DNA from: a virus
Direction: 5' to 3' (one strand)
DNA: 64,000 nt
Virus record (IMG/VR): IMGVR_UViG_3300009184_000033
Coordinates: 62,001 to 126,000 of that record
The notes beneath the pieces are model-generated. The model was not told the DNA's origin, made no database searches, and saw only the letters and a list, made by a program, of their open reading frames with translations. The translations under genes were made by a program, and so were the position numbers. Within the stretch, counting starts at the first letter, position 1. Every line of letters starts with the position of its first letter. Positions 32,156 through 63,833 of the stretch are shown here, one piece after another.

Positions 32156-32183
32156 ATTATACCACGCGTAAATCGCTTTTCAA
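32156..32183 (-). promoter_or_regulatory. Sigma-70-type promoter of the helicase operon
   Basis: On the minus strand TTGAAA (32183-32178), a 16-base spacer and TATAAT (32161-32156) stand just before the helicase start. The -10 box is perfect and the -35 box has one or two mismatches. The same two boxes and the same spacing recur at 60.1 kb. Likely read by host RNA polymerase early in infection. Confidence 0.75.
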
Positions 32184-32491
32184 CGCTCTTTTGCCATCTT
32201 ATCCCGTTTCATCTTCTCGAACTCGGTCCGGATCCACATCTTCGCTTGCTCTTCATCAGCAAACGTGCGGGTGTAGCTCTGCTTTCTGCCCTTGGTGGTG
32301 TCGGTGATGCTGGCAAACGTCTTGCCCTTCTCATCTGTGGAGATCTCGTACTCCATGTCTTCGTAGTCTTCCCAGGTGTACGGGTCAGTGTGGACGCTGT
32401 GGGCATTTCTACCGACACCGGGAGGGACCTGGGTCATCGAAGTTCCGAATCCAGTCTCAAAAAGCAGATCGACTAATTTCATTCTGTGCAT
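32180..32491 (-). CDS. Protein with capsid-targeting-like start MKLVDLLFE, 103 residues
   Basis: The first residues MHRMKLVDLLFE are nearly the same as those of the 642-residue HAD-type protein (MKRMKLVDLLFE), although the rest is unrelated. LFE followed by a small residue fits a prohead-protease site (L/I-x-E). The remaining body (YTWEDYEDMEYEIST, TFADEEQAKMWIRTEFEKMK) is a small alpha/beta domain of no known family. I infer that it is packaged in the head. Confidence 0.65.
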   Translation of the reverse strand: MHRMKLVDLLFETGFGTSMTQVPPGVGRNAHSVHTDPYTWEDYEDMEYEISTDEKGKTFASITDTTKGRKQSYTRTFADEEQAKMWIRTEFEKMKRDKMAKER

Positions 32492-32506
32492 GCTATAACT
32501 GTACGT

Positions 32507-32848
32507 CTAGTACACATCGTATTCCGTTAGCTTGTCAGCCACTTCCTCGAGGAAACTTTCAGGGATCCCAACGTAACCGATGTCCTTCGCGGCTCTCTTC
32601 AGCTTGCGAACGTTGGTCTCTGCCTTCCTGGAGGGGCGCATCTCAAGGTCCATCATGGCATCAATAAGCTCCTGCTCCAGGTCCGCCCAGTCAATCTCTT
32701 CACCCTGGGGTGTGACGTAGTACTCGGGAGGAGACATAGGAGGGGGTGCGAGCGTTGACATCTCTGAGATACGACGTGAACGTGTGAGCTTGGAAGCTTC
32801 CTCGCGGATGATCTGACGAAGTCTCGTCTCTGTGAGTCTGATTGCCAT
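32507..32848 (-). CDS. Protein with LRQIIREE-type start, 113 residues
   Basis: I start at the ATG at 32848, nine bases after AGGAG. The start RLTETRLRQIIREEASKL is one of several similar N-termini in the window. The body has a Pro-rich linker and two acidic helices (ADLEQELIDAMMDLEMRP, IPESFLEEVADKLTEY). Function unknown; probably virion-internal by analogy with T4 tagged proteins. It has its own promoter-like boxes directly after the hsp20 terminator. Confidence 0.68.
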   Translation of the reverse strand: MAIRLTETRLRQIIREEASKLTRSRRISEMSTLAPPPMSPPEYYVTPQGEEIDWADLEQELIDAMMDLEMRPSRKAETNVRKLKRAAKDIGYVGIPESFLEEVADKLTEYDVY

Positions 32849-32876
32849 TTGATGATTCTCCTGTGAGCTGTAACGA

Positions 32877-32905
32877 TAACTATCCTCTTTCGGGCATGTT
32901 TTCAA
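32877..32905 (-). promoter_or_regulatory. Possible sigma-70-type promoter after the hsp20 terminator
   Basis: The minus strand has TTGAAA (32905-32900), a 17-base spacer and TAGTTA (32882-32877). It sits between the hsp20 terminator and the next gene, where a new promoter is expected. The -10 box is weak. Confidence 0.45.
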
Positions 32906-32911
32906 TCTGAC

Positions 32912-32946
32912 AAAAAAAAAGCCGTCGAACCCAAGAGAACGACGGC
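32912..32946 (-). terminator. Intrinsic terminator of hsp20
   Basis: The minus strand reads GCCGTCG, a 12-base loop, CGACGGC, then nine T. This is a textbook intrinsic terminator 24 bases past the hsp20 stop. Confidence 0.92.
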
Positions 32947-34068: not shown

Positions 34069-34266
34069 TCAGCGCTGGCGTAAACGCCTGATGCCTTCCT
34101 TAATCCTCTTGATCGGCATGGCAAGGTTGTCTCCGCCTGCCCACAAATCTTCCTCTGCTTCGACATCGGAGGGGTGGTCGACCTCGATTGGTGTCGCCTC
34201 GCCAGAGTGCTCCTGGCTGAGAGCTTCGCGGATGATCTTACGGAGCTGACGTACGGTGACCCTCAT
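34069..34266 (-). CDS. Protein with LRKIIREAL-type start, 65 residues
   Basis: It starts MRVTVRQLRKIIREALSQE, one of the recurring capsid-targeting-like N-termini. The rest is a short acidic stretch and a basic end (PIKRIKEGIRRLRQR). Being mostly tag plus basic tail, it could be an internal head peptide. The ATG overlaps the upstream stop (ATGA). Confidence 0.65.
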   Translation of the reverse strand: MRVTVRQLRKIIREALSQEHSGEATPIEVDHPSDVEAEEDLWAGGDNLAMPIKRIKEGIRRLRQR

Positions 34267-34868
34267 CTTGAGTCCACCGCGGGAGGTCCTTCCTGCCCAT
34301 CTTCCTCTTCCTCTGGCTCTTCAGCGTCTTCGTCTTCTTCCTCGTAGTCTTCTTCCGAATCCTCGGCGTCATCATAGTCACTGATTTCGTACTCACCGGT
34401 GTCTGGGTCTTCCGTGTCTTCCTCGGAGTCCTCATAGTCCATGGAATCATCGGAGTCATCGTCCATGTCTTCCATGCCCTCACCACTCATGAGCGAAGAT
34501 AGCATGCTTGACATGTCGCCAGAGTCCATCTCGTCAGATTCCATGTCATCATCGCCATACTCGGAAGAGTAGTCTGCATCACCACCGCTTCGATCGATCT
34601 CGCCATGGAGGTAGTCTGACAGGCTCGTCATGTATGAGTCGGCGACAGCCATCTTGCTGAGAACCCAAGCTGGCAAGTCATCGCCATCCTCAAGCGCGTC
34701 GTGGAGCTTTGTTGCCCTCGCTGCGATGTTCTTCAGCTGTGTACGGGCCATGTCAGCATCACCTGAGTATCCAGGCGAGTGGTCGAAGTCCCGGCCCTGT
34801 TGGCCCTCAGCATGCTCACGAAGAGCTTTCCTGACAAAACTGCGGAGTGTGCTTATTCTAACTCTCAT
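34263..34868 (-). CDS. Acidic-tailed protein with LRSFVRKAL-type start, 201 residues
   Basis: It starts MRVRISTLRSFVRKALREH, a tag-like amphipathic helix. Residues 60-90 have LPAWVLSKMAVADSYMTSLS, a motif I know from unnamed proteins of T4-like marine phages. Residues 105-195 are extremely acidic (E, D, S, Y), as in proteins that bind basic partners or DNA-mimic tails. It is a candidate internal head protein. A TAATACTTA element lies 14 bases before the ATG. Confidence 0.68.
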   Translation of the reverse strand: MRVRISTLRSFVRKALREHAEGQQGRDFDHSPGYSGDADMARTQLKNIAARATKLHDALEDGDDLPAWVLSKMAVADSYMTSLSDYLHGEIDRSGGDADYSSEYGDDDMESDEMDSGDMSSMLSSLMSGEGMEDMDDDSDDSMDYEDSEEDTEDPDTGEYEISDYDDAEDSEEDYEEEDEDAEEPEEEEDGQEGPPAVDSR

Positions 34869-35731: not shown

Positions 35732-38257
35732 ATGAGAATGTCACCGGCAGCGAGAGAGCAGAGGATTGACCAGCTGGCGCAGCTTATCAGAGAGGGCGCA
35801 GATTACCGCTGGGAGAACGAGACTGAGCGCCACATCTGGACCCAGGTCGCAGCAGAGTTTCTCAGCGAGCACCTAGATGGCAGGAAGTCTCTGGTCTCTG
35901 AAGCGTGCTTCAGAGCGCACGTGAACAAGAATGACGTGCTCCTTGCTGAGTCTGCTGCCCGTCTAAACGAAGGTTTCTTCGGTGGACTCAAAGACATGCT
36001 CGGAGGCGGGCTCGCCAAGACTTTCGGTAAGGCATTCGGCGGTGTGAAGTCGAGAAACTGGTGGATCTTCGGGGGTGGAGGCGAGAAGGAGACGGCAAAG
36101 TATCGTCAGGCCTACATTGATGCTACCGAAGAGAACCAGGAAGTGTTTGCAAAGCTGGGTCAGACTACTCTGAAGACATTGGTCGACCAGATCAAGGGTA
36201 TGATCGAGGAATGGCCCAACGGCGGTAGCGTCAAGGAATTCACAGATGCGATGGCCAAGTTCGACCAGTTCTATCAGTCGGTCAGGACCGCCGCCGGTGC
36301 CGGCACGACGGATGGAACTCCGCCACCCCAGGGCGTTGCACCAAAGCTCAGCGTCGAAGACGCTAACGCAATCATCAAGAAGCTTCGCCAGGCGATGCAG
36401 TTCTTCGACAGGGAACTCAAGGACAGGTACACTTACAATCTCGAGAGCCGCACTCGTAGGGTTCCAACGCTGGTTGAGGCCCTGCTTCTTGAGGCGGGTG
36501 AGGATGATGACATAGGTGCGGAGGGCAGAAAGACCTCAGGCATGAAGGGTCTTGAGAGCAACCTTGCACCAGGAATATTAGCCGCCCTTGGACTTGGAGG
36601 AATTGCAGCTGGACTTCTTGCGCAGTCTGACTGGTTCATCAAGCTCACCTCGGTAATGAAAGAATCGCCGCCAACGGAAATTGTCCAGAACACCACAAAG
36701 TTTGTGGAAGAAACTCTAGGAACAGTGAAAGACGGCCAGGGCTGGATGTGGAGCATGAACAATCTCACACCCGGAGGACCAAACATCACGGGCGCATCTC
36801 CGATGTCAGACGTCGTCAAGAAGATTGCCATGGCTGGCGGTGGAGATTTTTCCAAGGGCGTCCAGGCATACACCAGCGGTGATCCTCCGTTCCTGATGGG
36901 TGGGCAAAAGACTGCTGAGATGCTCATGAAGCTCAAGGACAATCCAAACGCTTATGGAAAAACGATGATGGACCTTCTTGGGCACACCGGAACAGGCACA
37001 GGCAAGAAGATTGGGGATCTTGTCTGGGTCAAGTCAGGCGCCCAACTAAAGGGACTGGTGATGAAGCCTGTTCAAGAGGTCATTAAGTCTGCGGGATCTA
37101 AGGTGCTGACTCAAACAGCGCTTGGTGCCAAGATCACGGCGCTCGGTCCGTGGGGAGTAGGAATTGGCGCTGGACTAATCGCCGCCGCCGCCTCGATCAA
37201 GGCTCTCAGAGACTACGGCGCAAAGAACAGCAGAACTACTTACTTCCAGGCAGCCGTCGACCTGTTCAAGGACATTAAGCCCGACGAGGTGAAGGGAGCT
37301 ACCACGATTCCTGACAATCCTCCAGAAGTCGACCCGCCTCAGGCAGGGAAAGTCCTGGTAACTCTCGACAATACAAACACAATGGTATCAGTACCAAAAG
37401 ATGTCGTTGCGTCTCAAGGATTTGAGATTCCCAAAGCCTACACCCTAGAAGAGATACCGCTTAACGATAAGGAGGAGACAAAGAAAGAGGTTATTGCATA
37501 CCTCGAGTCTCCTCCGGGTAAGGCGGGAGTCCAGATGGCAGATGGCAAGTCCGCAAAGGATCTGGAGGGTCTAGAGTTTGAAGTTACAGACAAGCGCAAG
37601 AAGTCCAGAGGAAGCTCGACAGAGCCTGGCAAGGGGGCAGTATCAGTGGTTTCGATCAAAGATTGGAAGATGCCGTCTCTCGCATCAGTGCTATTCGAAT
37701 CCACCGATGAGTCTGCAGATGTAAGAGTCGCTGGCGCAGACGCCAAGAAGAGCAAGACCTACAAGGAGCTCAAGAAGAAGTTCAAGAATGATCCGAAGAA
37801 CTTGCCGCTCCCATCGGGCGTCTCCACAAGAGAAGATGACGTAATAAAAGACACCATGAAGCTCACTGACGACGACTTCGATCTCAGGGCTACATCGAAG
37901 GACGGCGATGTCCAGCAGGGACTCAATGCCCTTCGCAAGAAGGCAAAGAGTGGTAACGTCATCCTCACCTTCAGCAACAAGGCGCACGAAAAGCTGGCAA
38001 CACAGTTCCAGATGTCAGAAGATGACATAAAGAAGTTGTTGGCAATATACTCCAAGAAGCCCGAGTCTGCGCCAAAAATAGAAGCCTACAAGTCCATCTT
38101 GAGCAAGATTAAGGATGACGCGAAGAAGAAGGAGCTGAGGCAGTTCATAGTCGACATGGGTATGGCGGTATCTAAGCCGAAAAAGAATGAAGCGCTCGAT
38201 GCGGGTTCTGAGAACCTCATCATCGAGCGCTGGTCGAAGCTGGCAGGACTGCTCTAG
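35732..38257 (+). CDS. Large probable virion-internal protein with several protease-type sites (841 residues)
   Basis: No overall family recognised. The start QRIDQLAQLIREGADY resembles the tag helices of the other putative head proteins. The protein holds several (L/I)xE contexts next to acidic runs: LLAESAARLNEG (about 70-81), LVEALLLEAGEDDD (about 250) and LASVLFESTDESAD (about 650). It ends in IIERWSKLAGLL, shared with the HAD-type protein. Residues 280-310 and 465-490 include Gly/Ala-rich hydrophobic stretches that may cross or enter a membrane. It could be a polyprotein cut during head maturation or an ejection protein. It is convergent with the lipoprotein gene (2 bases apart). Confidence 0.65.
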   Translation: MRMSPAAREQRIDQLAQLIREGADYRWENETERHIWTQVAAEFLSEHLDGRKSLVSEACFRAHVNKNDVLLAESAARLNEGFFGGLKDMLGGGLAKTFGKAFGGVKSRNWWIFGGGGEKETAKYRQAYIDATEENQEVFAKLGQTTLKTLVDQIKGMIEEWPNGGSVKEFTDAMAKFDQFYQSVRTAAGAGTTDGTPPPQGVAPKLSVEDANAIIKKLRQAMQFFDRELKDRYTYNLESRTRRVPTLVEALLLEAGEDDDIGAEGRKTSGMKGLESNLAPGILAALGLGGIAAGLLAQSDWFIKLTSVMKESPPTEIVQNTTKFVEETLGTVKDGQGWMWSMNNLTPGGPNITGASPMSDVVKKIAMAGGGDFSKGVQAYTSGDPPFLMGGQKTAEMLMKLKDNPNAYGKTMMDLLGHTGTGTGKKIGDLVWVKSGAQLKGLVMKPVQEVIKSAGSKVLTQTALGAKITALGPWGVGIGAGLIAAAASIKALRDYGAKNSRTTYFQAAVDLFKDIKPDEVKGATTIPDNPPEVDPPQAGKVLVTLDNTNTMVSVPKDVVASQGFEIPKAYTLEEIPLNDKEETKKEVIAYLESPPGKAGVQMADGKSAKDLEGLEFEVTDKRKKSRGSSTEPGKGAVSVVSIKDWKMPSLASVLFESTDESADVRVAGADAKKSKTYKELKKKFKNDPKNLPLPSGVSTREDDVIKDTMKLTDDDFDLRATSKDGDVQQGLNALRKKAKSGNVILTFSNKAHEKLATQFQMSEDDIKKLLAIYSKKPESAPKIEAYKSILSKIKDDAKKKELRQFIVDMGMAVSKPKKNEALDAGSENLIIERWSKLAGLL

Positions 38258-38259
38258 TC

Positions 38260-39408
38260 CTAGCGGCAGGCACCAGAGAGGCTCGTAGTGGAGCCGCCCG
38301 GAACGTCAACTTCGACAAATGGCTCATAGCAGCCTTCGGAGTTGACGTTACGCGTATCAGTCCACACCATGACACCACCGAGGTAGACGTTCACAGTGAC
38401 ATCATTGCGTCCCGAGTAGACGGAACCAGGGTAGTCATGGACATAGACAGTGTACGTCCCACGTGCGGGAGAGTCGATATTGATATTCTCCGGACCAGTT
38501 CCCGGGATGTCATCGAGGTCGAGGATGGGATCATCCGTTGGACCACCAGCCCCCCAGTTGAGTCCGCCCCAAGTGCAATTCGCATAGTAACAGTCAGAAT
38601 CAGTTGTCAGGACGCCGCCATCATCGAGGAGGTGGAGGTCCATGTCATCGCCGGAGTATGTCCAGAACATCTCCACCCAGAGCCCGTCACCGGCTGTCGC
38701 CTCCAGGGTCGCGAGGCAGGGCTCAGAGACGAGACCGTCGTTATCAGTGACCACCAGCTGGCCGACGTACTCGCCTGCTACGTCCGGAGTGAAACCCCGA
38801 CGATTTGCGGTGCCACCAGGCATTGTGGAGGTGGCACCAGCCGGCTCAGAGATGAGAGTCCAGTCGTATGAGACGATCGATCCGTCATCGTACGAGGCGC
38901 TGCCAATCCAGTCCGCTGACTCATGGATGGCGAGGACGGACGTGGGATCGACCGAGCATACCGCAACTGGCTGGGAGAGTGGAGGCGCGGTGTCCCCAGT
39001 GTCTCCGGTGTCGACTATGACCTCCGCACCGGCTAGCAGAGGCACAGTAAGGTTAGGACTAGCAGGATCGTTAGAAAGAATCTGAAGGTCACCGGTTGTC
39101 TCGCTCCCATCGGAGGTGTATGTGATCGTGAGCTCAGCGAAGGAATCAGGTTCGAAAGAACCGACAATGGGCTCGAGGAGAGTGAATGTCTCACGTCCGT
39201 TGCCGATCTGCATTGCGGTCACGTTGAGGTTTGCGTCTCCGAGCGATGACATGGTGATGATCTGCGCCGAGCTCTCACCGGCTGGGACGATCCCAAAGTC
39301 GACAGGGCTGGGGTCGACCTGAATACGCGGTGCGCCATCAGTGGGTGGATCCTTGATGGAAGTGATCGTATTGTCCATGCATGCGACCGTGAGTAAGAAT
39401 AACACCAT
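38260..39408 (-). CDS. Secreted lipoprotein with ASH/HYDIN-, PKD- and DUF2135-like domains
   Basis: A 382-residue protein starting MVLFLLTVACMD; TVAC fits a lipobox, although the signal peptide is unusually short. Residues 25-130 resemble an ASH domain (VDFGIVPAGESSAQIITMSS). A DTGDTGDTAPP linker follows, typical of Myxococcota proteins. Residues 145-240 resemble a PKD fold (SYDWTLISEPAGATSTMPGG). Residues 240-380 resemble DUF2135 (DMDLHLLDDGG, NINIDSPARGTYTVYVHDYP). It probably sits on the host surface. GGAGG lies before the ATG. Likely acquired from a host. Confidence 0.75.
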   Translation of the reverse strand: MVLFLLTVACMDNTITSIKDPPTDGAPRIQVDPSPVDFGIVPAGESSAQIITMSSLGDANLNVTAMQIGNGRETFTLLEPIVGSFEPDSFAELTITYTSDGSETTGDLQILSNDPASPNLTVPLLAGAEVIVDTGDTGDTAPPLSQPVAVCSVDPTSVLAIHESADWIGSASYDDGSIVSYDWTLISEPAGATSTMPGGTANRRGFTPDVAGEYVGQLVVTDNDGLVSEPCLATLEATAGDGLWVEMFWTYSGDDMDLHLLDDGGVLTTDSDCYYANCTWGGLNWGAGGPTDDPILDLDDIPGTGPENINIDSPARGTYTVYVHDYPGSVYSGRNDVTVNVYLGGVMVWTDTRNVNSEGCYEPFVEVDVPGGSTTSLSGACR

Positions 39409-42022: not shown

Positions 42023-42183
42023 GATTCCTTCTCCTCATTTCCGTTTTTAGCCGTATCTCTTTCCTTGTACGCTCTCTCGAGAATCGACCAGAAGTAATCT
42101 GTCATCCTCGTCGCATTATACCCCTCATCCATTCTTGCTTCGATTTCCTCAAAGAGTTCATCTCTCGTAAAATCCCAGCTCAT
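42019..42183 (-). CDS. Small hypothetical protein, 54 residues
   Basis: A short frame with ATG at 42183, ending in an ATGA overlap with the next gene. It contains FTRDELFEEIEARMDEGY and TDYFWSILERAYKERD, two helices. No family recognised. Confidence 0.55.
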   Translation of the reverse strand: MSWDFTRDELFEEIEARMDEGYNATRMTDYFWSILERAYKERDTAKNGNEEKES

Positions 42184-42398
42184 TCTGTCTCCTTGTCTCT
42201 ATCATAACCATCGGTGTCGTCGTTTACAAGGTCGACTTCGCGAGGTTTGAACCAAGCGATACCGACCGGCGTGTGGACTCTCAATGGGTTCGGGTTGGTC
42301 CCGACTTCAATGATGAGACCGATCTGTTCCCAGTATTTCTCGGCATAATCCTTGTCGTATTCCGGTCTGCGGATCCTGACGAGATCACCGGGTTTCAC
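42180..42398 (-). CDS. KPGDLV-family small protein, 72 residues
   Basis: The start is a GTG at 42398, supported by a near-perfect ribosome site (GGAGGTGATC) just upstream. (M)KPGDLVRIRRPEYD, then WEQIGLIIEVGTNPN, a short hairpin and AWFKPREVDLV: the shared layout of a small SH3-like barrel. Function unknown. Confidence 0.65.
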   Translation of the reverse strand: MKPGDLVRIRRPEYDKDYAEKYWEQIGLIIEVGTNPNPLRVHTPVGIAWFKPREVDLVNDDTDGYDRDKETE

Positions 42399-42594
42399 TG
42401 ATCACCTCCAGATTCTCCTCCGCCCAGGGCTGCATCTCACCGTCGATCAGGACCCACCAGTCGCACCAACTGTTGATGGGATGGCCGTCCTCGAGTGTGA
42501 CGGGTTCGACGATCACTCCGGTGTGACCGAGGATATCGTCAGGGAGTTTCTCTTCGGATGAGTGGACAATCCTAACGAGGTCACCGGGTTTCAT
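42385..42594 (-). CDS. KPGDLV-family small protein, 69 residues
   Basis: I start at the ATG at 42594 (MKPGDLVRIVHSS); the frame extends upstream without a matching motif. It follows with LGHTGVIVEPVTLEDG, WWVLIDGEMQPW and AEENLEVISE, the same order as its neighbour, so the two are tandem paralogues overlapping by 14 bases. Confidence 0.65.
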   Translation of the reverse strand: MKPGDLVRIVHSSEEKLPDDILGHTGVIVEPVTLEDGHPINSWCDWWVLIDGEMQPWAEENLEVISETR

Positions 42595-42745
42595 CAAACT
42601 CCGACTCATCATCGAATCCTGCAAGACTGGCAATCTCACGCCAGGCGGCGGTGATCTCTGGTGGGTCCCGGTAGTCGGTTGCTGGATTGTAGTGCCACTC
42701 GTAGAGGAGCCTGAGGGTGTCGATGCTGATTGTGACCTCGTTCAT
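42581..42745 (-). CDS. Small hypothetical protein, 54 residues
   Basis: Short frame from ATG at 42745, with an AAGAGGAAGA ribosome-site region upstream. It contains TLRLLYEWHYNPATDYRDPP and TAAWREIASLAGF. No family recognised. It overlaps both neighbours. Confidence 0.52.
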   Translation of the reverse strand: MNEVTISIDTLRLLYEWHYNPATDYRDPPEITAAWREIASLAGFDDESEFDETR

Positions 42746-42906
42746 TCTTCCTCTTCAGGGCGGCGATCGGGATTGTTTCGGTACCACTCCTCCCGCATCC
42801 GCATGTTTTCCTCATGCGTGTACGCCGTGTACCATGGTGGGCCGATGTCTGGACACTTGCACTGGCTGTGTAAGAATCTGCAGTCATCGCAGTGGTGGAT
42901 GCTCAT
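42742..42906 (-). CDS. Small zinc-ribbon-like protein, 54 residues
   Basis: Short frame from ATG at 42906. It starts MSIHHCDDCRFLHSQCKCPD with CxxC and CxC spacing plus His, a likely zinc site. The tail ends in EEEE. Coupled to the next gene by ATGA. Confidence 0.52.
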   Translation of the reverse strand: MSIHHCDDCRFLHSQCKCPDIGPPWYTAYTHEENMRMREEWYRNNPDRRPEEEE

Positions 42907-42920
42907 GATTCACTCCATTC

Positions 42921-43142
42921 TCAAGGTAGTTGGATGTCCCATTCTCGCTGAAGATCTTTCAACACGCTTACTCTCCACTCACATACCCGGCAGGGATTGT
43001 CATGCCTACACTCGTAGGTGAGCTCACCTGGGTGGGAGACGAGGCACGGAGCATTTCGAACGTGGTTGAGGAGGTCTTCGATGATCTCCTTCAGTCTTTC
43101 GTTCTCGAATGGTAGGTACTGGAGTTTCAGGCCTTCGTGCAT
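42921..43142 (-). CDS. Small Cys-rich protein, 73 residues
   Basis: I start at the ATG at 43142 (MHEGLKLQYLPFENERLKEI), overlapping the phosphoesterase stop by 16 bases. It has Cys at APCLVSHPG, YECRHDNPCRVCEW, a possible metal site. No family recognised. Confidence 0.52.
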   Translation of the reverse strand: MHEGLKLQYLPFENERLKEIIEDLLNHVRNAPCLVSHPGELTYECRHDNPCRVCEWRVSVLKDLQREWDIQLP

Positions 43143-51603: not shown

Positions 51604-54600
51604 GGCCTTGCCAGCTGGCGTTCCAGAGGAATCGATCGGAGACTCATCACCCTTGCCCTCGATCGAGATCCTCTCGGTCGAGATTCCTTTTCCAGCGAGA
51701 TAGTCGGCGGCAACCTTTGCCCTCTCGTATGAGAGCTCGTCAGGATGCTTGTACTCAATCTCAGAGGAATCAGCATAACCAACTACCTTGACTCCAAATC
51801 CAGGTCGAGAGTTCAAGATAACCCAAACGCCATCGAGTGTTGCTTGTCCCCTGGCGTTCAGCTTGGAATCTCCAGCCTTGAAACCTATGCCGATCTCTTG
51901 CTTCGGAGCCGTGACCGCGTCTGGCGCAGCTGGAACAACTATCACTATCGGCTGCTCGTACACGGTGACTGACTTGCAGTCGCATGCTGGAGCTGGTGGG
52001 GGTATGACCAGAGCTGGGGCTGGAATTACTTCAGGTTTATCATCAGAGCCAAAGGTCAACTGAGCTGATAGTTGCCAGTCGGGGTCTCCTGGCTGGCGGA
52101 TGATTCCCTTGCTTCCCGCGACTCCCACGGAGAAGTTTCCTATTGTCCAGTCGAGTGATGTCCCCACAAAGAGCGAGGAAACTGGTCTCTCACCGATGTT
52201 GTAGTAGGCTTGCGTATCGACGCCAACCGTGAAGTTACCAAGACCGTAGGCAGCTAGAGCGTTAAGGTAAGGACCGTCTCCGAGCTCGTAACCCTCGAGA
52301 TCAATTTCTGGGTAAACAAGGTAACCACCACCAGCTGTAAAGCTTAGATCCCCGACCTGTCCCTCGGCACCGGCCTCGACCTGCATCACTGTGTTCGGGT
52401 GCGCGACCCCGAGCCCAACGCCAGTGGGAACAACGACCGCGAGATCGCCGTAAGCTCCCCAGCCGTCCTCTCCGAATGCCTTTGTATATCCACGAGCTCC
52501 ACCCCAGGCGTCTCCGATTCTTGGTACACCATCCTGCATAATAGATCCCGGGAGACCCACATCGAAGGAGAAGTGATCGAAAGTGTACCTATTTGTCGTC
52601 CAGCCCCAGAAGGTGTCACCGATGACGACCGTCTCAGTGCCGTCTGGATTCACATAGGAGAGCGGGTCAGTAACGATACCGCCGACCACTGCCGATTCCT
52701 CACCCTTGAATACCGAGGCTCCCCTCGGAGGAAGAGGAACCACGCTCATCTCTGGGACCTCACCGCCTGAAGCGCCCATCAATAGTGGAGTACCCAGGAT
52801 AGCAGCCATGAGACCGAGGCCACGTCGCCTCACCGAGGCGAGGAGGGCAGCTCCAAGCAAGATGATTCCACCTGATGGTCCACCACCTGTCGTTGAGCAT
52901 CCGCCAGGAACGTACTTACCCACAGCTGGCTTGACTGGATCTTCTACGGGGTCTGTGTCGGTATCAACTGCTGTGTCGATGCCTGAATCAATCCCCGAGT
53001 CTATTCCGGAATCGATCCCTGAGTCGATGGCAGTATCGACTGCTGTGTCACCAGTATCTACTGGTCTGTCGTCCACTGGGTCGCATGCGTCTCCGATTCC
53101 GTCACCGTCAATATCCGTCTGATCATTAGGCTCACCGAAGCAGTTGTCGCTGTCGTCGGCGTATGTGTCACCGTCAGCATCAGAGTCACAGAAATCTCCA
53201 ATACCGTCGTGATCGAAGTCTAGCTGCTCGTCGTTCGGATAGTCAGGGCAGTTGTCGGCAAGTCCGCAGACTCCGTCAGAATCGACATCGTTCGATGGAT
53301 CTCCGAGGCAAGTGTCCGATCCATCGCAGACTCCATCACCATCGGCGTCGTTGAACGGATCGTATGGGCATGGGTCTATGTCAGCGCACTTGTCGTCAGA
53401 GTCGACGTCATCTTCCGGATCAAGGGGGCATGCGTCGCATCCGTCAGGGACAGTGTCGAGGTCAGAGTCGACAAGGTCATCAGAGCCTGCGCAGATGTCG
53501 ATATCTCCACAGACTCCGTCCGCGTCCGAATCATTCTCAGCATCAGCTGGGCAGATGTCGACGTCTCCACAGTTTCCGTCCTCATCAGCATCGTTCATGG
53601 GATCAAGCGGGCAAGTGTCTGCCGATTCGCAGAGTCCATCGCTGTCACGGTCATCGAGCGCGTCCGATGGACAGGCGTCGACGTCTCCGCACACCCCATC
53701 ATCATCTGCATCGTTCAGCTCATCGAGCGGACAGGCATCACAGTCATCAGAAAGACCATCAGAGTCTACGTCCGCGACGTCGTCGAAGCCAGGGCAGATG
53801 TCTGCAGAGTCGCAGGAGCCGTCTCCATCAGAGTCATCTGCTGAGTCGGTCGGGCAGGTGTCGCATCCGTTCGGAACAGAGTCGCCGTCGACGTCAAGCA
53901 GGTCATCGGCGCCTGGGCAAATGTCGTCCGAATCACAAGAACCGTCAGCGTCAGAGTCATCAAGGGCGTCGAATGGACAGGTGTCACAACCATCTGGGAC
54001 AAAGTCCAAGTCGGTGTCCATCAGGTCATCAGACCCAGGACAGGCCTCGTTGTTTCCGCAGACAGTGTCCTCATCCTCATCGTCGAGAGGATCGTAGATG
54101 CAGATATCACATCCGTCTGGAGTTCCATCTGAGTCAGAGTCTACGATATCGCTAAACCCTGGGCATGTGTCGAAGTCACCGCAGATTCCATCTAGGTCTT
54201 CGTCATCGAGAGGATCATTAGGGCAAACATCGCATCCGTCAGGGGTAAGATCTGAATCTGCGTCAGCAAGGTCATCGTATCCAGGGCAAATGTCGGTATC
54301 GCCACAGATACCATCAGCATCCGCATCGTTTTCAGGATCGGTCGGGCAAGTGTCCTCAGTGTCAGGTATGCCGTCAGAATCTGCATCTGGAATCACGGGT
54401 GCCTCGGCACATTCCGTCGCAGCGGTGATCGCAGAGTCATCAAGTGCATAGACAACCCTGAATGTCTCAGACTGTCCAGGTATCATATCACCTATGCGGA
54501 CTGCAAGAGAGATTGCCTGATCTGCGGTGGTTGTGGATCCAACTGATGAGTTTAGTCCTGAGCCGTTCCAGATATTGGAACCGTCTGTGTTGCTGAATCC

Positions 54601-55332
54601 GCCGTGCGTGACCTTTGCGCGTGAGTCAGAGGCAAGAAGGTAGAGGTCAGACCCATCGCCTCCCGTGGCCTTCACCTCAGCGAGATCAGTTGAGGCATTT
54701 GGCTGGGAGATGATGGTGTTGGTCGTGCTGTAACCGTAACCAGTCATCACAGCGTTGTCAGGATCTACGTTCCTGAACCAGTACACGTCCGACAGGGTGC
54801 TCGATCCGTTGTTGGTGAGTGTGACGGTCATGACGATGTAGACGCCGTCATTCACAACGCCGTACTGCGTCTCAATACCAAGGTCTCCCCTGTTTCCGGT
54901 CCATGTCGCGGCCCCGCCGAGATTCCCACAGATGTCGACTTCACAGGCAGGGTCACCGAGGCTGCCTACAATGTTCTGGCTTCCGTTGAAGTTTGTGTAG
55001 GAAGTGCCGTTGACCTCGACTCCCCATCCCTCGAGAGGCGAACCGGGAGAGAAGAAGTCACCGTAGAATGATGCCCATCCGTTGGCTTGCGGGTTCGCGA
55101 CAAAACCCATCTGGCCCGTGTTGGAGCGATAGTGCCAGCCAGCAGGATACCCTCCCTCGCCAAAGGCACCTTCACTTCCAAGACCAAGCTCAACGTAGGA
55201 GTTGCGGATGAAGGCTGCGGACCCAGGATCGCTTACCTCACAGAATCCGGAGGCGTGTGCTACTCTGGGAGCTGAAGCGAACGCTGCTAAAAGAACAGGG
55301 AATAGAATTTGATTTAGACATAGTTTGCGCAT
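51550..55332 (-). CDS. Giant secreted protein: TSP3 repeats, MYXO-CTERM-like segment, barrel and OmpA domain (1260 residues)
   Basis: Signal peptide at 1-28 (ILFPVLLAAFASAPRVAHA). Residues 30-310 are a beta-rich secreted domain; about 315-745 carry thrombospondin type 3 calcium repeats; about 752-797 repeat DSGI and DT; about 808-835 hold GGCSTTGGG, a hydrophobic helix and RRRG, a MYXO-CTERM-like pattern. It continues, after a second signal-like LMAAILGTPLLMG, into a barrel-like region (848-1097) and an OmpA peptidoglycan-binding domain (1144-1260; LSYERAKVAADYLAGKG, LNRRVEF). It looks like two host proteins fused in frame. Outer membrane role likely. Probably acquired from a Myxococcota host. 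Confidence 0.85.
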   Translation of the reverse strand: MRKLCLNQILFPVLLAAFASAPRVAHASGFCEVSDPGSAAFIRNSYVELGLGSEGAFGEGGYPAGWHYRSNTGQMGFVANPQANGWASFYGDFFSPGSPLEGWGVEVNGTSYTNFNGSQNIVGSLGDPACEVDICGNLGGAATWTGNRGDLGIETQYGVVNDGVYIVMTVTLTNNGSSTLSDVYWFRNVDPDNAVMTGYGYSTTNTIISQPNASTDLAEVKATGGDGSDLYLLASDSRAKVTHGGFSNTDGSNIWNGSGLNSSVGSTTTADQAISLAVRIGDMIPGQSETFRVVYALDDSAITAATECAEAPVIPDADSDGIPDTEDTCPTDPENDADADGICGDTDICPGYDDLADADSDLTPDGCDVCPNDPLDDEDLDGICGDFDTCPGFSDIVDSDSDGTPDGCDICIYDPLDDEDEDTVCGNNEACPGSDDLMDTDLDFVPDGCDTCPFDALDDSDADGSCDSDDICPGADDLLDVDGDSVPNGCDTCPTDSADDSDGDGSCDSADICPGFDDVADVDSDGLSDDCDACPLDELNDADDDGVCGDVDACPSDALDDRDSDGLCESADTCPLDPMNDADEDGNCGDVDICPADAENDSDADGVCGDIDICAGSDDLVDSDLDTVPDGCDACPLDPEDDVDSDDKCADIDPCPYDPFNDADGDGVCDGSDTCLGDPSNDVDSDGVCGLADNCPDYPNDEQLDFDHDGIGDFCDSDADGDTYADDSDNCFGEPNDQTDIDGDGIGDACDPVDDRPVDTGDTAVDTAIDSGIDSGIDSGIDSGIDTAVDTDTDPVEDPVKPAVGKYVPGGCSTTGGGPSGGIILLGAALLASVRRRGLGLMAAILGTPLLMGASGGEVPEMSVVPLPPRGASVFKGEESAVVGGIVTDPLSYVNPDGTETVVIGDTFWGWTTNRYTFDHFSFDVGLPGSIMQDGVPRIGDAWGGARGYTKAFGEDGWGAYGDLAVVVPTGVGLGVAHPNTVMQVEAGAEGQVGDLSFTAGGGYLVYPEIDLEGYELGDGPYLNALAAYGLGNFTVGVDTQAYYNIGERPVSSLFVGTSLDWTIGNFSVGVAGSKGIIRQPGDPDWQLSAQLTFGSDDKPEVIPAPALVIPPPAPACDCKSVTVYEQPIVIVVPAAPDAVTAPKQEIGIGFKAGDSKLNARGQATLDGVWVILNSRPGFGVKVVGYADSSEIEYKHPDELSYERAKVAADYLAGKGISTERISIEGKGDESPIDSSGTPAGKALNRRVEFVVTVSAEPVK
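53095..54390 (-). repeat. Thrombospondin type 3 repeat array
   Basis: More than a dozen units of the type D-x-D-x-DG(I/V)xDxxDxCP, each 20-36 residues, coding for Asp-rich calcium loops. The DNA is repetitive but diverged, so it is a protein repeat array and not a DNA satellite. The plus strand gives long false reading frames here. Confidence 0.85.
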
Positions 55333-56045: not shown

Positions 56046-57974
56046 TCAGTACCCGTCCTGCTCTTGAGCATGCTCCAGCGCCGACTCAAGATCTTCCGCA
56101 ATCCGATTTGCATCCTGCTCGTCGATGTGCTCGCAGTCCCTGATTATCGAGATTGCTTCCCTGGTGAGAGGGATGATCATCGCGGTGGTGTAGTTGGGTC
56201 TCTCACGGGCGCTGTCTATCATGTCCATCAGCTCAAAGAGCGCGCCAAGCGCCACTGAGTCCTCTGGACAGCCGGCGTCCTCTAGATCCATCTCCGCCAT
56301 CTCAAGGGCGGCAAGTAGCTCGGATGTCTGCATCTGCTCGAGGTCCCTTCCTGCGAACATCTCTCCCGCCTCGGTGAGGCTCTTGCCGCGAACTCTTGAT
56401 TCGACCACGCCGCGCGGATCCAAGATCGCGAGGACGCGCCCAGTGGTGATCTTGCCACGGCTCCAGTTGTCGAAGATCTTCTTGAAGGTCTGCCTGGAGT
56501 GCGTGACGCTCTCTTCCCAGATGTCACGGTTTTCTGGTGATAGAGTTTGCTCGAGCTCGTCGAACTTGGACATCACTTTGTGCCTGAGCTTATTGAAAGC
56601 TCTTCCGGCCGGAGTCTGTATGTCACGTGCTAGATCAAAGTTAGTGTCCATGCTTGCATGCCTGTTCTGGGCGAGCTTGTAGTTCTCCCAGATCGCCTTG
56701 TACTCTGGTGTCATGTGAAGCGTGTTGAGGAACCTCTGATAGTCCTCTATCACCTCGTCGTCGCCAGCATTAATGAGCCGCTGCGCCTGGTTGGGTCCAA
56801 AGATCTCCTTGAAGATTCCGATCAGACCTGGGATGACAGACCATGGAGAGTTGAGAAATGAGTCAATTATTCCGTACTCGCGGAGCAATTTGCCTCGAAC
56901 AGTTGCCATGACCGCAGACTCACCAATGTCAAGGGTCTTTGGATAGCCCTTCTGACCCGGCTTCTTTCTTGGTAAGCCCTTCTTCCTGCGCTGGCGGATA
57001 TTGTGCCAGAGACCCTTTGGCTTCGCTTCGTTCAGTGGCTCAAGCCCAGCAAGCTTGTGCCAGCGCTCGAGGATGGGATCTTTGTCGTATCTACGACCTG
57101 AATTCTCTTGGCTCTTTGTGGTCTCTTCTTCAGCTGGCTCGAATGACTTGTTTGGTGTAGAAGGATTTGCCTCATTGTGAGCAAACTCACCTGGACCATA
57201 AATGTGCAGTTCTGCTGGAATCTGCTTTGCCATGTTCTTTTCTACGTCATTGGTGTTCTTACTGAGATCATCATAGAAGTGAACTTCCTCTGGCTTTTGC
57301 GCGGCTTTGTCAACAAAGTGATCTTTTATCTTCTTGCCCTTGTTTCCGCCTGAGACGCCGAAGACTCCAGAGTTTGGCTTCGCACCCTGCTTCTCCAAGA
57401 ACTCTTCCATGTCTTCAGCGTTCGTGGCGGTCAGCTTGTTGCCGTGAATGTCCTCCACCTGTCCACTGGCGGTCCTGGCAGTTACAACTGCCGTCTTGGA
57501 GCCAGCCGCGTTCGCCTTCTTGAGCTTATCAATGGTGGACGAGATTGGCTTGGTGGTATCCAGGTTTGTGCTGCTCGAGGGAGTGTAGTCTACCAACACC
57601 TCGTCTTGTCCAGAGGCTCCAGTTGGAACTCCGAATCCAGTCGCAAACTGTCTATCTGATGGTATCTGCGACTGAATCTTGGCAAGAGCAGCAGAATTCA
57701 CGTAGGCGGCATATGCTCCGTCTTTTTCGGAGATCGGTACGATGCCCGGATCAAGCAGCGCATTCGTGCTGACGCCGAGGCTCTTGAGCCAACCCTCGAC
57801 CTCCTGCTTAGACTTGTGGACTGGCTTTCCGTCTCGGTACAACATTACGGCATTCGCATTTGTAGTGACGCCAAGCGTGTCGTCAAAATCGAACAAGTGA
57901 ACTTGCTTCTCTGGAGGAGCGTCACCTGGTACTGCATCTTCGAACAATAGATCGACGAGTTTCATCCGCTTCAT
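56046..57974 (-). CDS. HAD-type polyprotein with MKLVDLLFE tag (642 residues)
   Basis: Starts MKRMKLVDLLFEDAVPG, the tag shared with the 103-residue gene. Residues 25-285 are HAD-like: FDFDDTLGV (29-33 core), TAVVTARTAS and VHFYDDLSKNTNDV. About 301-312 is ILERWHKLAGL, also at the end of the 841-residue protein, then GLWHNIRQRRKKGLPRKKPG, a basic phage motif. The rest is helical and acidic. It could be a packaged polyprotein cut at LFE and near ERWHKLAGL. The ATG overlaps the pilin-like stop. Confidence 0.72.
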   Translation of the reverse strand: MKRMKLVDLLFEDAVPGDAPPEKQVHLFDFDDTLGVTTNANAVMLYRDGKPVHKSKQEVEGWLKSLGVSTNALLDPGIVPISEKDGAYAAYVNSAALAKIQSQIPSDRQFATGFGVPTGASGQDEVLVDYTPSSSTNLDTTKPISSTIDKLKKANAAGSKTAVVTARTASGQVEDIHGNKLTATNAEDMEEFLEKQGAKPNSGVFGVSGGNKGKKIKDHFVDKAAQKPEEVHFYDDLSKNTNDVEKNMAKQIPAELHIYGPGEFAHNEANPSTPNKSFEPAEEETTKSQENSGRRYDKDPILERWHKLAGLEPLNEAKPKGLWHNIRQRRKKGLPRKKPGQKGYPKTLDIGESAVMATVRGKLLREYGIIDSFLNSPWSVIPGLIGIFKEIFGPNQAQRLINAGDDEVIEDYQRFLNTLHMTPEYKAIWENYKLAQNRHASMDTNFDLARDIQTPAGRAFNKLRHKVMSKFDELEQTLSPENRDIWEESVTHSRQTFKKIFDNWSRGKITTGRVLAILDPRGVVESRVRGKSLTEAGEMFAGRDLEQMQTSELLAALEMAEMDLEDAGCPEDSVALGALFELMDMIDSARERPNYTTAMIIPLTREAISIIRDCEHIDEQDANRIAEDLESALEHAQEQDGY

Positions 57975-58177
57975 CTTGTTGTACCTACCCTTCCAATTTT
58001 TCCATCTGAGAGTATCTTCTTGATATCCTTACCAAGATCGAGAACGCCCTGCTTGAACGGCTCGATGAATACATATGCTGCCGCCACGATGGCGATGACG
58101 ATCACGCTGATGAGGAGCATGTACTCGACAGTGGACTGTCCCTCGTCATCTGCAATGAGCTGCTTCAGTAGTTCCAT
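57971..58177 (-). CDS. Flp/type IVb pilin-like protein, 68 residues
   Basis: MELLKQLIADDEGQSTVEYM followed by LLISVIVIAIVAAAYVFI and a charged tail. GQSTVEYMLLI is the prepilin hallmark: cleavage after Gly and the Glu five residues on, then a long hydrophobic helix, as in Flp pilins. A phage-encoded pilin is unexpected. GAGG precedes the ATG, and TATAAGTATC lies before that. Coupled to the HAD-type gene. Confidence 0.8.
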   Translation of the reverse strand: MELLKQLIADDEGQSTVEYMLLISVIVIAIVAAAYVFIEPFKQGVLDLGKDIKKILSDGKIGRVGTTR

Positions 58178-60104: not shown

Positions 60105-61130
60105 TTATGCAAGTACCGAGGCGTCTACACCAACGTCTGCATCTGCCCTATCGTACTTCTTCTTGATCCAGTCAGTTATTATCTTGTTGATGTTGATGTC
60201 TGCGATCGATTTATCTGGGCTGTCTTTAGCGATCTTCCTCAGCTCTCCAACATACCACTTGATGTACTCAGCTTCGAGCTTGTCATCAAGGACATCCTCG
60301 AGGTCATCATTGAGCTGTAGAGCCTTTCCAAACTTCCCAAGCTGATCATTGTCTGGTCCCTTTGCGATCTTCTCGGCAAAGTCAGCAAACTTCTCGTCGG
60401 GTGACTGTTGGGACTTCCTAAACGAGGCAAACAGAGACTTGATCTTGCCTCCGACCTCGACAGCCTTCTTGATCATCTGGTAGCCAGCAACAAGCTTGTC
60501 GCCATATGGGATGAGCTTAACGGCTTGCTCTACGAGCTTCTTGATTGCCTGCTTCAGCGCCGATGTGAAGACGGTGTCGACTAGCCCCTTGAACGTCTCG
60601 TTGCTTGTGTACAGGTCCTTGAGTCCCTTGAAGTGGTCTAGAACATCAGTTATCTGCTCTTTCTTGTTACCCCAAAGCCACTGGAGAGACTTCTTGATAT
60701 CGTCGTACTTCTTCTTAGCCTCTCTCCAGGCGCTCTGTAAATCGACGCCGTACTTCTTCAGGTCAGTGAACCATTCCAGCATCTCCTTCACGTCGTCCTT
60801 GTTAGAAGAAGCTAGCTCTGCCGCCTCTTTGGACTTTTTGATCATGGCGCTGATGTTCTCTGGCGCATATTCTTCGGCAAACTCAAGTGCTTCCTTGATG
60901 AAGTTTGCCATGGAATCATCCATGTCGCTAACGGTCTCGTCAAAGGAGGCTAGCAAATCTCCGACAGTCATGCCAGCCTCGAGCATCAGCATGTCGGTCT
61001 CGTGTTCAAGAATGACGATTCGAAGGTCTTCAGATCTCAGCACCTCTCTCACCAGGCGTGAGCTTCGGTGTGCTGGGCGAGAGTCCATAAGTTGCTCACG
61101 GATGAGAGCGCGAAGGTACTTCTCTTCCAC
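60105..61130 (-). CDS. Helical protein with LRALIREQL-type start, 341 residues
   Basis: Starts MEEKYLRALIREQLMDSR and has a second tag-like SSRLVREVLRSE at residues 23-35. The rest is long charged helices (AMIKKSKEAAELASSN, LDHFKGLKDLYTSN, DKLVAGYQMIKKAVEVGG) without enzyme motifs. Likely internal head or scaffold-like protein. Confidence 0.65.
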   Translation of the reverse strand: MEEKYLRALIREQLMDSRPAHRSSRLVREVLRSEDLRIVILEHETDMLMLEAGMTVGDLLASFDETVSDMDDSMANFIKEALEFAEEYAPENISAMIKKSKEAAELASSNKDDVKEMLEWFTDLKKYGVDLQSAWREAKKKYDDIKKSLQWLWGNKKEQITDVLDHFKGLKDLYTSNETFKGLVDTVFTSALKQAIKKLVEQAVKLIPYGDKLVAGYQMIKKAVEVGGKIKSLFASFRKSQQSPDEKFADFAEKIAKGPDNDQLGKFGKALQLNDDLEDVLDDKLEAEYIKWYVGELRKIAKDSPDKSIADININKIITDWIKKKYDRADADVGVDASVLA

Positions 61131-61137: not shown

Positions 61138-62376
61138 TTACCTCTTCTTCTTTGGCGGCAGGCTGACGCCTTTCCGGCGGCTGTATTTTATGGTGTAGTC
61201 GTCCTGCCACTCAGCGTCATAGAGCTGTGCTCTCATGGTTTTTATTGGATCATGTCCACGAACTGAACTCCATTTGCGGGGAGTCATATTCTTTAAGAGC
61301 TCAGGGTTGTCATTACCATAGTAGCCAAAATATGGCTCGCCAGAGAACTTGATGGCGCCAGACTCAGAGTCTCCCGTGACCTCCTTGTCAGACCATGGCA
61401 AGTCAAAATACACGTCTTCTGGATTCGACCTGTTGTATGAGTCTGCAAATGATGCAATCTCTCGCGGGACATCGCCCCACATCTGGTACACCTTGCAGGT
61501 GAGCTGTGCTCCAGATTTCACGATGACCTCTCCCTCACCGCCGTGCTCTGAGTTGACTTCGATGTTGTCGAAATCCACGATGGTGTCCTCTGGATTGACT
61601 ACAGCACCGATTATGTAGCCACCTTTCTCTGCGTAATTCTTACCAGACTTTGCTCTGGCGGCCCACTGCATCATTGCCTCGTACTCAGATCCGGCTGATG
61701 ACATCGTGGCAAAACGCTCTGCGACGCTCTTTGATTTCGTCCACGCGCTGGGCTTATCCTGCTGGAATGGGAACGGCCTCTTGCCATCTCCGTACTTTTC
61801 TGCAAAGTCGAGGAGGTCCACGACCTCCCTGAATCTGATGCCACGGTAGAGGACAGTGCGCTCCTGCATGCGGTACGGCTCGAGGTCAATTACGTACTCT
61901 GGCCTCGGCTCTGGCATGCCATAGCCGTTGGTGTTCTTCCACTGCCTGAGCCACTTCTTAGATCCGAGAGCAGGAGCACCACGACCCTTCTTCTTGCCGA
62001 CGGTGGAGCGGATCTTCAGCGCGCGCTTGATGATCGGCAACTTGTCATAGTTGTTCCTGACAAAGCCAAGCGGGTCCAGACTGCGATTCCATTCTATGCG
62101 AACTGCGACGTCAGGCTCGTTCATCAGCGCCTTGGCTTCCTGGCTGTTCTTGAAAGCCTCGAAAGCCGGCGCAAATTTCGCTGCCAGCTCTTTGTTGGAA
62201 TCTTCGAACTGTGGCGCCCACATGTGGCCTGCATCCACTCTCGTCAACATAGCCTTGAGCGCGGTAGCAGCCTCACCCGATCCGAACATCAGGTCGTAGA
62301 CTTCGCCGGCAGAGAGACCCTTGCTCTCTAACATGATCCTGTGGAGGATTCTCTCTATTAGCGTCTCTCTCATCAT
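61138..62376 (-). CDS. ADP-ribosyltransferase-like protein with capsid-targeting-like start (412 residues)
   Basis: Residues 2-17 (MRETLIERILHRIMLES) form a tag helix ending IMLE|S, an (L/I)xE site. Residues 170-290 have the R-S-E order of ADP-ribosyltransferases: LYRGIRF (R178), SAWTKSKSVAERFA (S210, S215) and HGGEGEVIV (E281-G-E283, an ExE motif). It would move ADP-ribose from NAD+ to arginine or a similar residue. T4 Alt is a packaged enzyme of this kind. The start ATGATG overlaps the upstream stop. Confidence 0.75.
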   Translation of the reverse strand: MMRETLIERILHRIMLESKGLSAGEVYDLMFGSGEAATALKAMLTRVDAGHMWAPQFEDSNKELAAKFAPAFEAFKNSQEAKALMNEPDVAVRIEWNRSLDPLGFVRNNYDKLPIIKRALKIRSTVGKKKGRGAPALGSKKWLRQWKNTNGYGMPEPRPEYVIDLEPYRMQERTVLYRGIRFREVVDLLDFAEKYGDGKRPFPFQQDKPSAWTKSKSVAERFATMSSAGSEYEAMMQWAARAKSGKNYAEKGGYIIGAVVNPEDTIVDFDNIEVNSEHGGEGEVIVKSGAQLTCKVYQMWGDVPREIASFADSYNRSNPEDVYFDLPWSDKEVTGDSESGAIKFSGEPYFGYYGNDNPELLKNMTPRKWSSVRGHDPIKTMRAQLYDAEWQDDYTIKYSRRKGVSLPPKKKR

Positions 62377-62654
62377 GATGCCTCTGGTGGCATCACATGG
62401 ACGCCGCCCGGAACTTTGTTGATGGTCCAGCCACGTTGGGTGAGCTGATTCACGAGAATTGGATTTGGGAGATCGATCGTGTATCCGCCAGTCTCTGCGA
62501 GATTCACAGCCTCGATAGCGCCTGCTGGATCCCACTGGGAGTATGCTTCGCGAAGGATGCCAAGGGTCCTGTCGGGATTGGGGTTGTATTCTCCATAAGA
62601 ACCCTCGCCAAGCAGGAATCCACGTGTCATGTCGCGGAACTGGTTGCTGTTCAT
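62373..62654 (-). CDS. Small protein with FRDMTRGFLLGE start, 93 residues
   Basis: ATG at 62654 after GAGGATAAG. The start NQFRDMTRGFLLGEGSYGEY has LLGE|G as a protease-type site. The C-terminal part (LVNQLTQRGWTINKVPGGVH) is a small alpha/beta domain. No known family. Coupled to the ADP-ribosyltransferase. Confidence 0.6.
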   Translation of the reverse strand: MNSNQFRDMTRGFLLGEGSYGEYNPNPDRTLGILREAYSQWDPAGAIEAVNLAETGGYTIDLPNPILVNQLTQRGWTINKVPGGVHVMPPEAS

Positions 62655-62661
62655 CTTATCC

Positions 62662-63177
62662 TCACTTTTTCTTCTTTGACTTCTTGACGACAGCCCAGGA
62701 CTTTGATGGGTTCGCAGAGTTGACCCTCGCCATGGCCCACTGGTGCTGTGACATTCCCTTCCGTGAGCCAGACCTCGCCCATGCCGCAAGTCCCTTCTCA
62801 TACTCAGTGTACACAGAACCTGGGGTCAGACCGCGTTTCTCTGCCTTCTTCTTCAGGGTCTCTTTGGTCTTCTTGGAGAGGGCTTCTACTACGATCTCTT
62901 GGATGAGATCAAGCAAGACCTCATGCCCCTCTTTCTGCGAGTCAGGTCGCGGCTTTGACTCGAACCCAGGCTTCTCGCGCTCCTTCTTCTCCATGCGCTC
63001 ACGGCGAGCATACGCCCGCTTGATCCTCTCTGGGTCACCAGACTCCAGATCAGCCTTCGTCATGTCAAGCTGCTTGTCCCGCTTGCTGCCCTCAGGAGCA
63101 TCATACTGCGGAGGATTTTTGGCCTCCAGCAGTTCTTCCTGTATGATCTCTCGCAGCCTGCTCTCTGTGATTTTCAT
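62662..63177 (-). CDS. Basic protein with LREIIQEELLE start, 171 residues
   Basis: Starts MKITESRLREIIQEELLEAK, a tag helix with LLE|A. Residues 110-171 have KRGLTPGSVYTEYEKGLAAW, RKGMSQHQWAMARVNSANPS and a poly-Lys end, a basic domain I know from marine phage hypotheticals. A packaged DNA-associated role is plausible. Confidence 0.68.
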   Translation of the reverse strand: MKITESRLREIIQEELLEAKNPPQYDAPEGSKRDKQLDMTKADLESGDPERIKRAYARRERMEKKEREKPGFESKPRPDSQKEGHEVLLDLIQEIVVEALSKKTKETLKKKAEKRGLTPGSVYTEYEKGLAAWARSGSRKGMSQHQWAMARVNSANPSKSWAVVKKSKKKK

Positions 63178-63188
63178 CGAGATTCCAC

Positions 63189-63833
63189 TCAGCCCGATGT
63201 ATCGATTTCATAGTAGGCGTAGATGCGACCTGAATCGGGGTCTCGGTACATCTCGAACTTCCACATAGGGGCGCCAGAGAACCTGCTCTGCAGCCACTTC
63301 ACCGCCTCTTCATCAGAGAGACCCTCTGGCGCGAAGGCAGTGCCGATATCGGTGTGACCATAGGTGGGACGACCGGCGCCGAGTCCATTCGGTGACATGT
63401 TCCTGATGATCATGCCGCCGACACGGAGCTTGTCATCAGCGCGCCGCTGCTCCTCAGCGCGGGCATTTTCTGCCGAAGTGTGGGAACTCACCGCATCGAT
63501 GAAGTCCTGGCCTGAGGGACAAGTCCCAGCCTTCGACATCTCACCAGCCTTCTGGACGTGGAATGCGATCGCATTGCGAGAGATGCCAGTGGCCTGGGAG
63601 ATCTGGTCGCAGATCTCGCCCTTGTTTCCACCGGCTCCGAAGACCAGACCTGCGCCCATCTCGCACATCATGTCCCAGGCCTTTGCGAGGTCTTGGTGGA
63701 GCTCCGTGTCGTTCGGGTGGAGCTTGAACTGTCGCAGCCAGCTTCGCGTGGTCATGTTTTTCTCGAGGTCCATGGGCGACTCCATGATAGTGCGCCTGAT
63801 GATCTGGCGAAGTTGCGACTCTGTGATTCTCAT
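63189..63833 (-). CDS. Protein with LRQIIRRTIMES start, 214 residues
   Basis: Starts MRITESQLRQIIRRTIMES, close to the upstream neighbour, with IME|S as a protease-type site. The body has WLRQFKLHPNDTELHQDLAK and a C-terminal KWLQSRFSGAPMWKFEMYRD domain. No family recognised. GGAG lies before the ATG. Confidence 0.66.
   Translation of the reverse strand: MRITESQLRQIIRRTIMESPMDLEKNMTTRSWLRQFKLHPNDTELHQDLAKAWDMMCEMGAGLVFGAGGNKGEICDQISQATGISRNAIAFHVQKAGEMSKAGTCPSGQDFIDAVSSHTSAENARAEEQRRADDKLRVGGMIIRNMSPNGLGAGRPTYGHTDIGTAFAPEGLSDEEAVKWLQSRFSGAPMWKFEMYRDPDSGRIYAYYEIDTSG

Follow-up and report, generated by a model that had tools for sequence, protein, structure and literature searches.

Shared N-terminal tags on unrelated proteins of uncultured T4-like phages as candidate capsid-targeting propeptides

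This study investigated short N-terminal peptides that recur on otherwise unrelated proteins of a virus known from sequence. The DNA analyzed (the window) comprised 64,000 nucleotides, positions 62001-126000 of a 132,044-base IMG/VR virus record (G000). The results revealed that a tag is shared by sets of 5 to 18 otherwise unrelated proteins per phage in a group of uncultured T4-like phages; an alignment of 70 tagged proteins gave a sole clear consensus, MxITExxLRxIIREE. We estimate at nearly four chances in five that the tags are capsid-targeting propeptides, which would dock proteins onto the scaffold, be cut by an S77 protease, and lead to packaging of these proteins and their injection with the DNA. 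The tags most likely resemble those of phage T4 in function and would serve a cargo set that is larger, varies, and has ADP-ribosyltransferase-like proteins among its members.

The shared tag and its controls

The genes of G000 were called with a simple codon-bias script (149 genes, g001-g149), and the N-termini of the 142 called proteins of at least 50 amino acids were compared. A first-pass annotation had listed eleven start sites in the window whose proteins begin with amphipathic N-termini on unrelated bodies, and the encoded sequences were as described at all eleven. Aligning the N-termini all against all within G000 yielded 54 pairs with a score of at least 32, and twelve N-termini formed a single cluster. 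Internal 22-mers gave 5.6 such pairs on average, and N-termini after shuffling gave 3.0. BLAST detected no similarity among the bodies of the tagged proteins of G000, and duplicated genes with diverged bodies were ruled out as the source of the tag.

We then scored the N-termini with a tag profile trained on other contigs only (31 distinct tags, with the related phages G005 and G008 left out), using a threshold of at least 10 bits and an expectation taken from internal windows. Twelve of the 142 N-termini of G000 reached the threshold against 0.03 expected, as did 11 of 150 in G005 and 5 of 156 in G008. Seven of the positive genes in G000 start in the window, at 32848, 34266, 34868, 35732 (+), 61130, 63177, and 63833. 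Beyond it, the profile added four cargo genes (g140, g141, g142, and g145; record 126558-129162) and the head-module gene g012, so that the earlier "at least eleven" was an undercount. A second leader type, M-x-R-MKLVDLLFE, begins the proteins at 32491 and 57974, where 11 of 12 residues are identical on unrelated bodies and DNA identity is only 69%. The tag was therefore supported for nine of the eleven listed proteins, seven by the profile and two by this leader; the remaining two, at 62376 (IERILHRIMLES) and 62654 (RGFLLGEG), merely fit the description, with no demonstrable excess over chance. The features of the window are listed in Table 1.

Table 1. Tags, leaders, and related motifs in the window (window coordinates)
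Feature	Gene	Feature position (strand)	Gene position	Profile score	Remark
Leader MHRMKLVDLLFE	g083	32456..32491 (-)	32180-32491		Same leader as at 57974
N-terminal tag MAIRLTETRLRQIIRE	g084	32801..32848 (-)	32507-32848	26.8	
N-terminal tag MRVTVRQLRKIIRE	g088	34225..34266 (-)	34069-34266	25.6	
N-terminal tag MRVRISTLRSFVRKALRE	g089	34815..34868 (-)	34263-34868	12.7	Body homologous to h051 of G008
N-terminal tag ending ...QRIDQLAQLIRE	g092	35732..35794 (+)	35732-38257	11.4	
C-terminal RWSKLAGLL motif	g092	38228..38254 (+)	35732-38257		Like scaffold C-terminus
Leader MKRMKLVDLLFE	g126	57939..57974 (-)	56046-57974		HAD-like protein
Internal ERWHKLAGL motif	g126	57042..57068 (-)	56046-57974		Separates HAD-like part from second domain
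N-terminal tag MEEKYLRALIRE	g133	61095..61130 (-)	60105-61130	11.5	
Possible leader	g134	62326..62376 (-)	61138-62376		By eye, without profile support; ADP-ribosyltransferase-like by motif
Possible leader MNSNQFRDMTRGFLLGE	g135	62604..62654 (-)	62373-62654		By eye only
N-terminal tag MKITESRLREIIQEELLE	g136	63124..63177 (-)	62662-63177	23.6	DUF5824 protein
N-terminal tag MRITESQLRQIIRRTIME	g137	63780..63833 (-)	63189-63833	20.8	

Amphipathic N-termini are common, and the similarity could in principle be due to chance or composition, or to a start element shared at the DNA or RNA level instead of a peptide; on the controls, the probability of such an origin is negligible. A degenerate DNA pattern of the tag gave 29 matches in 27 IMG/VR contigs, whereas permuting the same codons gave 0; a reversed pattern was found nowhere in the T4-type records and LR756508 described below. 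Together with the shuffled and internal-window controls and the profile enrichment in G000, these results ruled out chance and composition. A start element in DNA or RNA was ruled out because codons vary and identity is lost beyond the tag. The codons at fixed tag residues differ (TCN and AGY for serine, CTN and TTR for leucine), and because they vary while the residues stay, selection acts on the peptide. In ITES-type tags, third codon positions were the least conserved, and DNA identity was 0.70 within the tag compared with 0.31 over the 60 bases preceding it and 0.37 directly after it.

The leaders had also been described as often carrying (L/I)xE, the type of site cut by the T4 prohead protease, and this observation held. 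Such a site lies within residues 8-32 of 32 of 33 tagged proteins compared with 32% of untagged proteins, a contrast that is partly circular since the tag core itself contains IRE. A small or acidic residue follows the site in 82% of tagged and 15% of untagged proteins. Many tags carry second sites beyond the core, such as ILRE/S, RLAE/S, LLE/A, and LRE/G (the slash marks the site).

Head module, protease, and spread among phages

The structural genes identify G000, by homology, as a T4-type phage. It encodes a gp23-type capsid protein (g008; phrog_138, E=6e-75), a portal (g017; phrog_213, E=4e-74), an S77/gp21-type protease (g015; phrog_207, E=7e-50; PF03420), and a head-tail adaptor (g005). 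Among annotated isolates, Flavobacterium phage immuto (NC_055915) is the closest, with 43.5% identity in the capsid protein and 45.3% in the protease. A 1260-aa protein encoded at 51550-55332 (-) combines thrombospondin-3 repeats, a GGC/transmembrane/RRR stretch resembling a MYXO-CTERM anchor, and an OmpA domain; it also weakly matches a MYXO-CTERM cohesion protein, which is a hint of a Myxococcota-like host.

The first-pass annotation suggested looking for a gp21-type prohead protease elsewhere in the genome and counted its absence against the proposal; an S77/gp21-type enzyme is present in G000 (E=6e-27), with the catalytic-type residues H78 and S131/S132 kept in an alignment with T4 gp21 and three others. 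The gene order in G000 is portal, g016, protease, g014, g013, g012, g011, g010, scaffold (g009), and capsid protein, and that in T4 is 20-67-68-21-22-23. Two small genes between the protease and the scaffold resemble the tagged set at their N-termini: g012 (LTPALLRKIVLEE) scores above the profile threshold and g013 scores weakly. Among 80 S77 loci of other viral contigs, 43 contained a tag-scoring N-terminus, nearly always that of the g012 homologue; homologues of g012 and g013 were present in 74 and 77 of these loci, respectively.

The scaffold carries a motif of its own at the opposite end. RWxxLAG sits 2-7 residues from the C-terminus in 54 of the 61 scaffold homologues found; most of the remainder are truncated at contig ends. 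The motif is also terminal in g092, h080, and G021_123, the last of which bears an N-terminal tag too, and in three long genomes it was terminal in 5 of 6 occurrences against 0.014 expected. LRxLIR likewise occurs near the C-terminus of the g010 homologues h138 and k050 and of some cargo proteins (k015, L009_006, and g138). Sites of the (L/I)xE type were found near residue 60 in all 53 capsid proteins examined, the T4 capsid propeptide being 65 residues long (PMC9026906), and the scaffold contains 16 such sites against 5.5 expected.

The capsid-targeting proposal of the first-pass annotation thus gained an independent link, in that the same kinds of tag occur on protease-adjacent genes and on the scaffold C-terminus; the docking partner, cleavage, packaging, injection, and effector roles are what we infer from sequence. 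The docking partner is putative and amphipathic helices are versatile, so the tag might instead gather proteins after expression at, for example, the tail, a membrane, or a host complex and not at the prohead. We regard this alternative as quite improbable, given that the same tag types are found on the protease-scaffold genes and the scaffold C-terminus in dozens of phages and that cut-type sites come after the tags.

At least one core gene (gp20, gp21, gp23, terminase, or baseplate) was present in 12 of the 27 tag-bearing contigs and in 0 of 13 random contigs, the latter searched for four of the five genes, without gp21 (Fisher p ~0.003, calculated by hand). None of the five was detected in the other 15 contigs. 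Four of these 15 are at least 60 kb long, with homologues in G000, G005, G008, or immuto for 34-65% of their genes; judged by this gene content they are fragments of the same clade, and two of them hold 12 and 15 tagged genes. The S77 protease alone co-occurs with the tag in 5 of 27 contigs, a weak association because most contigs are fragments. The exact tag pattern was absent from 13 other T4-type records (including T4, RB49, RM378, Mel-JY01, and cyanophages), and 10 matches were found in the 484-kb uncultured phage LR756508.

Comparison with known packaging systems and proposed role

In T4, a capsid-targeting sequence (CTS) is present on IPIII, gp24, and Alt (PMC9026906, PMC5694885, PMC12373910). 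Ten residues at the start of IPIII are enough for packaging, and the leader is removed by gp21; the leader is the only part common to the internal proteins of T4-related phages, and IPI-III, once injected, block GmrSD restriction enzymes (PMC9026906, PMC12373910, PMC3012670). The ADP-ribosyltransferase Alt is also packaged and injected, and is cut at its C-terminus as well (PMC9026906). The system described here shares with that of T4 a short N-terminal leader on unrelated proteins, a gp21/S77 protease, an (L/I)xE-type site, and a gp23/gp20-type head. It differs in its distinct leader consensus, in the number of tagged proteins (up to 15 in an 82-kb piece), and in its additional use of fused tag units and of RWxxLAG tags at C-termini, like that of the scaffold. 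The T4 leaders of gp24, gp67, gp22, and Alt scored below zero in the tag profile; by eye only, MKLVDLLFE resembles MELITELFDE of Alt, and LRxIIRE resembles INELLRE of gp24. We call the tag T4-CTS-like in function because the design matches in every feature that sequence can address, though the leader differs. T4 already shows the principle; new here are the leader itself, its use at both ends of proteins, and how large the suite is in an uncultured clade.

Two other comparisons were made. Ejection proteins of the phiKZ/SPN3US type carry propeptides cut at S/A-x-E (PMC5694885). As is proposed for the proteins described here, they are inner-head proteins that lose a propeptide to the prohead protease and are then ejected; however, their propeptides are mostly long (more than 100 residues), compared with 12-21 residues and one shared consensus here. 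Phage immuto has one clear tag gene, MKKSQLRQIIKEA, next to its terminase, but this is the only clear LRxIIREE-type tag in the 150 kb scanned. No description of the tag was found in the titles, abstracts, and passages covered, which lay outside subscription journals.

In the capsid-targeting reading, an amphipathic helix would dock cargo onto the prohead scaffold core, and both would become enclosed as the gp23-type shell forms. This helix would be LRxIIREE or MKLVDLLFE when N-terminal, and RWxxLAG or LRxLIR where it stands at a C-terminus, as in some proteins. The S77 protease would then cut after (L/I)xE, freeing the cargo and clearing the tags. DNA would enter the head thereafter, and the cargo would exit with it into the next host, probably to counter defences or modify host proteins. 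Because purified virions cannot be had from uncultured phages, most of the proteins that phages inject are unknown. Should the tag prove to be a packaging signal, sequence would reveal what a large clade injects, and dozens of proteins would at once become new candidates for counter-defence or host takeover; the tags would also provide new short signals for directing proteins into phage heads.

Tag modularity and cargo proteins

Tags and bodies appear in varied combinations. The g083 body carries MKLVDLLFE, whereas its homologue k127 in another phage carries LRNLIREE; likewise, one family bears an ITES tag in L010 and L025 and MNRKEWNILVESWNKYLNE in L019 and L027. The same body is tagged in L028 and untagged in h050. 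In L202, an extra domain is inserted between the tag and an ADP-ribosyltransferase (ART)-like domain, which directly follows the tag in L025. G022_071 and G022_072 (G022:C1:60249-61867, L170) each contain a second full tag in their interior, as if two tagged genes had been fused, and k005 contains an entire homologue of h092.

Few cargo domains were recognizable, namely P-loop kinase AAA_33, HAD/polynucleotide-kinase-like, OTU-like protease, LRV/HEAT repeats, and DUF5824; most cargo proteins had no recognizable domain. Homologues in the two long relatives exist for only three of the approximately 15 cargo proteins of G000: g083, g089, and, in part, g136. These results bear on whether the tagged proteins are scaffold-docked assembly proteins of the prohead core, which would shape the head and then be degraded or expelled instead of delivered. 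Such a role would suit the conserved g012 and g013, placed in the head module like T4 gp67 and gp68, and gp21 degrades T4 gp67, gp68, and gp22 (PMC9026906). However, the cargo set varies outside the head module, and its kinase, HAD, OTU-protease, and ADP-ribosyltransferase-like domains are unlike those of assembly proteins; we therefore consider an assembly role for the tagged set unlikely.

Capsid targeting, our preferred reading, can be extended to a broader proposal that we advance tentatively, at slightly less than even odds. A whole uncultured T4-like clade, possibly including the 484-kb huge phage, may use a packaging code that works from both protein ends, with LRxIIREE-type tags at the N- or C-terminus and RWxxLAG tags copied from the C-terminus of the scaffold itself. 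This code would serve to load at least a dozen injected effectors, an arsenal that changes fast, and some of them would be concatenated fusions of tags and cargo for the protease to separate.

The motifs of two proteins, g134 and g140, are suggestive of R-S-E ADP-ribosyltransferases, the class of T4 Alt, an assignment that is not established. In g134, YRG, WTKSKSVAERFA, and GEGEVIV were seen by eye only; in the relatives of g140, YYRG, SSSWSS, and EKE are invariant or nearly so. A structural model for these relatives (pLDDT 60.6, pTM 0.58) had ART enzymes as its best Foldseek matches, which were weak (E=0.027 at best). Sequence searches of the candidates against Pfam or PDB gave no match, no similarity was found between T4 Alt and g134, and the single-sequence fold of g134 was unusable (pLDDT 34.6). 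Further relatives of g134 comprised one identical copy in viral contigs and none in phages or genomes. A profile comparison of the g140 relatives with g134 was not significant, though the two S-x-S regions did align. In G000, the reading frame of g140/g139 (record 126446-127133, -; L006 1446-2133) breaks before the E-x-E part, and the G000 copy may therefore be inactive or misassembled.

Other genes of the window were also noted. Immediately upstream of g126, 57971-58177 (-) encodes a small Flp-type pilin-like protein (DEGQSTVEYMLL...) with a weak class III signal peptide match. A lipoprotein-like protein with choice-of-anchor D and PKD domains (38260-39408, -) is 81% identical to its counterpart in G005. 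Genes for S-adenosylhomocysteine hydrolase and S-adenosylmethionine synthetase lie side by side at 46231-48890 (-). Short genes stand in a row at 42180-44261 (-), several starting with MKPGDLV, and far more occur in one array of G008.
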